Shown here: piece after piece, positions 1 to 199 of the stretch
Numbering within the stretch: position 1 is the first letter of the stretch
How the letters are laid out: each line of letters begins with the position of its first letter
Assembly: GCA_945913025.1 (NCBI GenBank)
Contig: CAMECJ010000002.1
Location: 1-64,000 of the forward strand
Direction: 5' to 3'
Source of the DNA: an uncultured Elusimicrobia bacterium
GTDB lineage: Bacteria; Elusimicrobiota; Elusimicrobia; Elusimicrobiales; Elusimicrobiaceae
DNA length: 64,000 bases
Translations under genes and position numbers: made by a program
Notes under the pieces: generated by a model
What the model saw: the letters and a program-made list of their open reading frames with translations, nothing else
What the model was told of the DNA's origin: nothing
Databases searched by the model: none

Positions 1-52
1 CAGACAGACAGACAGACAGACAGACAGACAGACAGACAGACAGACAGACAGA
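1..52. repeat. (CAGA)13 tetranucleotide microsatellite, continues past window edge
   Basis: Thirteen perfect CAGA units are visible and the tract is cut by the window start, so its true length is unknown. Read in the frame with codons starting at base 2 it encodes repeating Arg-Gln-Thr-Asp, and the frame stays open to a TAA at 197-199. Tetranucleotide tracts within genes are classic sites of slipped-strand phase variation, because a gain or loss of one unit shifts the frame. Confidence 0.9.
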
Positions 53-199
53 CACGCCGCGTCGTCGTACAACCGTACTTCCGCATTCTCGTACGCAGAA
101 TTTAGGCACCCCGCCGCTAACGGAGAACGGGCCTATGTCAACGGAGAACGGAAATATGCCAGAATTCTCATTCTCAACCGCAATCCCGGGAATGATTAA
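2..199 (+). CDS. Possible 3' end of an upstream gene carrying the CAGA tract
   Basis: An open frame of 65 codons runs from the window edge through the CAGA tract to TAA 197-199. After the Arg-Gln-Thr-Asp repeats come about 49 codons without a stop, including a short internal echo (NGERAYV then NGERKYA). No family is recognised. The open frame could be chance, because the repeat itself contains no stop in any frame. If real, this would be a phase-variable gene tail upstream of the DUF262-HNH nuclease, with 69 bp between its stop codon and the nuclease start. Confidence 0.3.
   Translation, partial: RQTDRQTDRQTDRQTDRHAASSYNRTSAFSYAEFRHPAANGERAYVNGERKYARILILNRNPGND

Follow-up and report, generated by a model that had tools for sequence, protein, structure and literature searches.

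A CAGA tract between a methylase body and a nuclease gene

CAGA-like tracts make genes phase variable in other bacteria, notably methyltransferases of restriction systems. The window, which is the whole stretch of 64,000 nucleotides analyzed here (G000:C2:1-64000), has its base 1 at the end of contig C2 and opens inside a CAGA run because the contig begins there. A sequence-only reading had counted at least 13 CAGA units at this position, in a frame open from base 2 to base 199 and followed 69 bp later by a DUF262-HNH nuclease, and had suggested that tract and nuclease could belong to one switchable system if the tract lay in a methyltransferase, specificity or surface gene. The tandem-repeat scan of the window returned a pure (CAGA)13.5 run at 1-54 (TRF score 108), the sole TRF row with a 4-nt unit in the 64 kb. 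The frame from base 2 was confirmed to be open up to a stop at 197-199, the other two frames are likewise open, and the nuclease ORF is present at 269-1429 with matches to PF03235 and HNH. The features at this end of the window are as follows.

1..54, + strand: (CAGA)13.5 microsatellite, 3′ part of the methyltransferase gene; from TRF and the genome pattern search; continues into contig C1
55..105, + strand: C-terminus A (short), ends RRVVVQPYFRILVRRI, stop 103-105; PF13651 match extended from 305 to 344 of 345
55..199, + strand: C-terminus B, stop 197-199; PF13651 match to 344 of 345
55..272, + strand: C-terminus C (long), stop 270-272; best fixed C-terminus elsewhere 62% over 26 aa, 1.6e-7
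269..1429, + strand: DUF262 (GmrSD_N) and HNH nuclease, 386 aa, putative restriction partner; PF03235 2.1e-22, HNH PF01844 6.5e-7, PADLOC REase_II 1e-86 over residues 19-385

Runs of at least five CAGA units occur at only two sites in the 1.76-Mb genome, the start of C2 and, as the reverse complement, the start of C1. As assembled, they measure 54 nt (C2) and 55 nt (C1). Both contigs stop inside the run and are unjoined in the assembly, presumably because the run exceeds the assembler's word. To the left of the tract, where the earlier reading had pointed for the gene, a 387-codon open frame on C1 runs into the CAGA tract. It contains a methylase body (C1:58-1089, minus strand) that matches EcoRI_methylase PF13651 (3.8e-119, profile positions 1-305 of 345), so that the supposed position inside a methyltransferase gene was borne out. 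The NPPF motif is present in its translation. Since the body match ends at profile position 305 of 345, the last 40 positions were expected beyond the tract, in the window. Once tail A or B was added to the body, positions 1-344 of 345 were covered, a full-length family match. Given the C1-C2 join, the position of the tract near the 3′ end of a predicted EcoRI-type adenine methyltransferase gene is established by sequence.

Were C1 and C2 unrelated and the CAGA tract a common repeat end, the join would be an assembly artefact. C1 and the first 1500 window bases do have the 54-nt run alone in common, but the run is absent from any third site in the genome. Moreover, the body end, tract, C-terminal cassette and nuclease stand on a single contig in G045, a genome of the same genus, and likewise in loci such as L064, L079, L144, L276, L291, L308, and L321. 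On the genome pattern search and these single-contig relatives we rejected a chance tract or assembly artefact, which we regard as extremely improbable. Several of the assemblies examined break inside such tracts, and the layout may have been overlooked for that reason.

The only Pfam matches of the nuclease at E ≤ 0.01 are GmrSD_N and HNH, without a helicase-type R subunit of type I/III. PADLOC labels the methylase MTase_II and the nuclease REase_II, and an NCBIfam search gave no match at E 0.01. A DUF262-HNH nuclease ORF stands beside an EcoRI-type methylase in 70 of the best 80 genome loci and in 41 of the best 79 viral-contig loci. The idea of one switchable system therefore stands as far as the tract in the methylase gene, the nuclease directly downstream, and the recurrence of the pair are concerned. 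As to the kind of switching, the sequence favors a three-way swap of C-termini over the plain on/off form that the earlier reading had in mind, and a separate 5′ heptamer would serve for on/off. That methylase and DUF262-HNH nuclease form one switchable system is the best reading, in which the switching itself is what we infer.

Three C-termini in overlapping frames

All three frames remain open past the tract, and each ends in YxRIxIR, the terminal strand motif of the methylase family. C-terminus A resembles the PYFRILIR end of tract-free family members. Joining the tails to the body raised the PF13651 score by 13.3 bits for A, 12.2 bits for B, and 4.3 bits for C; with tail C, the best PF13651 stretch was not lengthened. 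The best fixed C-terminus elsewhere for tail B is a weak match (34% over 35 aa, 4e-4). The CAGA unit, not divisible by 3, lies inside the coding frame at its 3′ end, as in genes that are phase variable through simple sequence repeats, and the late repeat gives alternative C-termini in three frames, as in C-terminal phase variation. A unit-number script showed that each added CAGA unit moves the tail through the cycle B, A, C, B. The stop of tail C overlaps the start codon of the nuclease (ATGA, 269-272), so the tail in use may alter the coupling or translation of the nuclease.

Occurrence of the layout

The scans covered named genomes and IMG/VR (best 80 and best 79 loci) and four further sets of 286, 38, 394, and 347 genomes; taxa are those of the record titles. 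Two further genomes of the genus of the window carry the cassette. G045 combines the body end with 27 GA units and a cassette of 80% DNA identity over 188 bases, and G025 has two contigs broken inside a GA run and a cassette with 82% identity over 186 bases. Compared with the window genome, their methylase bodies are 51-55% identical and their nucleases 45-46%. A search of 340 genomes of the phylum of the window found the cassette DNA in three, the window genome included, with matches that covered 186 to 223 of the 223 bases; three further matches were of about 30 bp each.

Tracts of AG units were found in Gastranaerophilales (L064), Porphyromonas (L084), G1031, G711, and the viral-collection contig L170. 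CAGA tracts were found in Christensenella (L114) and in G1079, G1089, G1118, G1384, G1329, G1148, and G975, a GACA tract in Ruminococcaceae (L079), an AGCAG tract in G933, and GA and GAACA tracts on the viral-collection contigs L166 and L144, respectively. In total, 20 loci have DNA after the tract (GA, CAGA, GAACA or AGCAG units). By our assignment of taxa to phyla, the tract loci presumably span several bacterial phyla. Three ambiguous loci were left out of this set, namely L133 with nine G, L171 with nine A, and L089, which has a short tract and off-frame modules; the nine-A runs in L107 and L150 look incidental, and L182 ends inside its own tract. Recurrence of the predicted three-C-terminus layout in several taxa is again established at the level of sequence.

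A DUF262-HNH-type nuclease is present in 19 of the 20 tract loci and was not found in the available DNA of L170. As L170 is an AG-tract methylase on a viral-collection contig with no such nuclease in its available DNA, phages may carry a switching modification gene. Pattern scans of IMG/VR returned loci already known, or nothing. A scan of 248 relatives of the Porphyromonas genome found the GA-tract pattern in none; the Porphyromonas genome does not conform to this pattern either. The EcoRI-type methylase occurs in 98 plasmid and 13 phage records, and in the two such records examined, no run follows the C-terminal anchor of the methylase within 260 nt. In L088 and L184, which have no tract, two C-terminal modules stand one after the other in a single frame; perhaps cassettes arise in this way.

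Frame counts and controls

Across the 20 tract loci, the terminal motif, in a slightly looser form used for this count, ends 54 of 60 frames. All three frames end in it in 14 loci, and the other six (L084, L114, L166, L170, G1089, and G1148) have two good frames and one poor frame each, the poor tail of L084 being the near-match PYFSVLIR. We also scanned 237 distinct bodies, comprising 22 with a tract, 205 controls, and 10 with too little downstream DNA. Of the 22 tracts, 18 were non-homopolymer, and the 13 of these with downstream DNA were scored. The motif ends 34 of 39 frames of the 13 scored loci, which is the less selected figure because L326-L330 had entered the 20-locus set via isolated C-terminal anchor matches. 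Only 1 of 410 off-frames of the 205 tract-free bodies has the motif, as do 30 of 1454 ORF ends in the window. One frame per scored locus is native, and the fair comparison is therefore 21/26 versus 1/410. Within 260 nt downstream of the anchor, the 237 bodies had runs with units of 4 nt (8), 2 nt (8), 5 nt (2), 1 nt (4), and 3 nt (1), compared with a single homopolymer in 600 nt of body in those genes.

Many of the modules that a frame shift opens up match a C-terminus that is the only one in another methylase, the best being that of G1329 (87.5% over 40 aa, 3e-21), together with those of L079 (77.5% over 40 aa, 1e-18) and G1384 (79% over 33 aa, 4e-15). Others, such as the window-type tail B, match fixed tails weakly. 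The later modules of most CAGA loci have their own copy of the anchor, GxMGVPITFLDKYxPEQFEI. Wherever two anchors lie in different frames, their spacing is 1 modulo 3 (9 of 9 loci, 166-193 nt), hence each module shifts the frame by one. At module junctions (L079 and others), identical bases are read in two ways: one frame gives K-M-stop, and another gives R-C-N-G, with which the next anchor starts. Four cassettes (CAGA, GA, GA, and GAACA) with 70-87% DNA identity have three open frames with the motif in all. When 36 or 45 random substitutions were placed in 220 bases, three frames were kept in 0.5% or 0.2% of 20,000 trials, under a null that ignores selection on any single frame. The three predicted tails are real modules of the methylase's own family.

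Variable methylase segments and a near-constant nuclease

We compared 177 distinct methylase-nuclease systems, among which 43 pairs (45 loci) have nucleases at least 88% identical. In 33 of these 43 pairs, the methylase C-termini are less than 50% identical. The central segments are less than 50% identical in 28 of the 37 scored pairs (in 6 of the 43 the pattern failed and the segment was unscored); both segments fall below this value in 23 pairs and neither in 3. Between L096 and L104, the nucleases are 99% identical and the methylase bodies 95-100% identical as far as the anchor, beyond which the tails are unrelated. In L278 and L279, the nucleases are 98% identical and the tails identical, and the central segments are unrelated. 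Mean column entropy of the methylase peaks at residues 211-240 (2.5-3.0) and 316-350 (3.0-3.3), and residues 76-135 are also fairly variable (2.0-2.5). In the nuclease, mean entropy stays at or below 2.3 in every 15-residue block, whereas the methylase reaches 3.3. By identity pairs and by entropy, the nuclease does not vary along with the variable segments of the methylase. These patterns suggest two target-recognition segments in the methylase, one central and one C-terminal, and none in the nuclease, which would follow the methylase for its target. With a nuclease that has no target of its own, a change of target or an out-of-frame methylase would be possible without killing the cell.

A heptamer repeat near the start codon

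The methylase gene has a second repeat, (GAACGCC)6, 17 bases from the start of its ATG, and the heptamer unit is also not divisible by 3. As assembled, the ATG frame stops after 29 codons, and the methylase body lies in another frame. Two species of the genus have 6 copies (G000) and 2 copies (G054) of the heptamer. In G054, the nearest relative found, an open frame runs from the heptamer repeat into the body with no clear ATG. We propose that the heptamer near the start codon is a second switch that would provide an on/off layer. Of the 222 methylases whose 5′ region is visible, three more carry a pentamer or heptamer run close to the start, L067 from Alysiella crassa (positions 1-61), L140 (2413-2475), and L195 (2369-2428). 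The run precedes the likely ATG of the body in L067 and L195, and a 12-nt run stands farther upstream in L170. The 3′ end of the G054 methylase (L037) is split over two frames: the body frame runs into a stop, and a different frame has the end KRIIIKRK.

Structure models

The model of the L064 methylase with tail A has a mean pLDDT of 90.9 and a pTM of 0.87. Its tract residues 331-335 lie between a strand at 313-318 and the end strand at 341-346, a stretch with two short predicted strands. The model of the L144 methylase with tail C has a mean pLDDT of 81.8. Residues 350-398, comprising the tract and the out-of-frame stretch, are disordered with pLDDT below 50; pLDDT is 69 at 401-410 and 83-92 from 411, with strands at 400-402, 408-412, and 416-421. 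VIA-align of a relative's model found a methyltransferase core, with METTL5 first (Z 10.8), followed by others that include M.TaqI (9.5), MmeI (9.2), and CamA (9.0); RNA methyltransferases are on top in this comparison, which hardly tested the part beyond about residue 303. Foldseek against the PDB gave no match at E ≤ 0.001, and a sequence search for a solved relative of the methylase gave none, with a single match at E 0.22. For the nuclease, the search for solved relatives returned seven weak, unrelated matches (E 0.067 to 0.6).

Proposed mechanism and alternatives

In our reading, to which we give a probability of roughly 0.7, the tract is the switch by which a restriction-modification system alters its own target. 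Replication slippage would alter the number of CAGA units in a cell, and the changed number would shift the methylase from one of three C-termini to the next. The C-terminus would be one of two target-recognition segments, the other being central, and each state would therefore methylate a different sequence. The DUF262-HNH nuclease, without a target of its own, would take its target from the methylase, so that restriction would shift with methylation and the cell would not cut its own DNA. The heptamer close after the start codon would add an on/off layer.

On/off switching is the usual role of repeat tracts in methyltransferase genes, and ordinary phase variation of this kind would leave one functional C-terminus and two frames of dead protein. 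It would account for the 6 of 20 loci in which one frame is not a good module. However, the family motif ends 54 of 60 frames, many of which match fixed modules, the off-frames of tract-free relatives have it in 1 of 410, and the 5′ heptamer of the same gene would already provide on/off. A simple on/off tract was rejected on the frame counts in the 20 loci, and we hold it to be improbable. The three tails might instead be functional but not set the target, tuning, for example, nuclease binding or stability. Such a role would suit the constant end strand, before which only a stretch changes, and no demonstration of a tail that reads DNA was found in the EcoRI-type family; but recurring tail types are swapped between near-identical methylases with the nuclease unchanged, which fits target recognition better than contact with the nuclease. 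We consider tuning unlikely.

If the two proteins were a classical type II pair, as the PADLOC classes MTase_II and REase_II would have it, the nuclease would read the same sequence alone and the tails would be equivalent. Against this, nucleases 97-99% identical accompany unrelated central or C-terminal methylase segments, nuclease entropy blocks stay at or below 2.3 compared with up to 3.3 in the methylase, and the nuclease ORF is intact although the assembled sequence puts the methylase ATG out of frame. Segment swapping and entropy speak indirectly against a nuclease with a specificity of its own, and we rejected the plain type II pair as improbable.

The system may even be a new kind of self-retargeting restriction-modification that extends to several phyla, a reading that we judge slightly more probable than its opposite. 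A methylase with two exchangeable recognition segments would guide a targetless DUF262-HNH nuclease, and a microsatellite of 2-, 4- or 5-nt units would select among three modules in overlapping frames. One slip would then rewrite both methylation and restriction, and a second repeat would turn the system on or off. If this is true, no recombinase is needed: a simple microsatellite gives three specificities plus an off state, and a single DNA stretch is maintained as triple-coding for three tails. It also suggests that a common pair filed as type II by PADLOC uses its methylase as a shared specificity factor, which would explain how targets change.

Relation to known systems

As a rule, a phase-variable methylase is either on or off, and switching among several specificities is known mainly from recombining type I hsdS genes. 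In type III Mod genes, repeats give on/off and the methylase sets the target of the nuclease. Like Mod, the gene described here has repeats in an adenine methyltransferase gene; unlike Mod, its methylase is of the EcoRI family and its nuclease is DUF262-HNH. In the part of the literature on GmrSD/BrxU available to us, these DUF262 nucleases are modification-dependent (PMC12707154). They likewise have DUF262 followed by a His-metal or HNH nuclease domain, whereas the nuclease here is encoded beside an adenine methyltransferase.

A close precedent for a change of target is NgoAV, a type I system of Neisseria gonorrhoeae, in which one recognized sequence gives way to another when the poly-G of hsdS changes; the available part of the report tells of an HsdS that is truncated or fused and of two specificities (PMC9577141). 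In both cases, a late change of repeat length in a specificity gene would alter the target without a simple switch-off, as shown in NgoAV and proposed here. Unlike NgoAV, the present system has an EcoRI-type methylase, one of three C-termini in overlapping frames, and units of 2, 4 or 5 nt. C-terminal phase variation in Helicobacter canadensis and N. gonorrhoeae, where a late repeat selects one of three C-termini, shares the 3′-end repeat and the three C-terminal choices; in the accessible parts of these reports, tail lengths range from a few residues to some tens, and homology of the frames to one another is not mentioned (PMC2823697, PMC5320596). Here, in contrast, all three frames end in modules that belong to the methylase's own family, and several taxa share the layout. 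A 2025 review, as far as its available part goes, names switching of single methyltransferases by simple sequence repeats and recombining type I target domains (PMC11868660). In the open-licence literature, searched largely at the level of titles and abstracts, we found neither a three-frame recognition cassette nor an EcoRI-type methylase that carries a tract of this sort. C-terminal phase variation and slippage-driven change of specificity (NgoAV) are thus already known, and the conserved three-frame module cassette appears new as far as we searched.

Other features near the contig ends

Pilin-like ORFs lie near both contig ends, at 6862-7383 and 9008-9523 of the window (minus strand) and at 2833-3315 of L020. 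Two tandem arrays, at 5694-6060 (146 bp x 2.5) and 6073-6506 (111 bp x 3.9), stand after ORF 3384-5768, which we take to be infB. Both arrays repeat the final codons of this ORF plus terminator-like hairpins.
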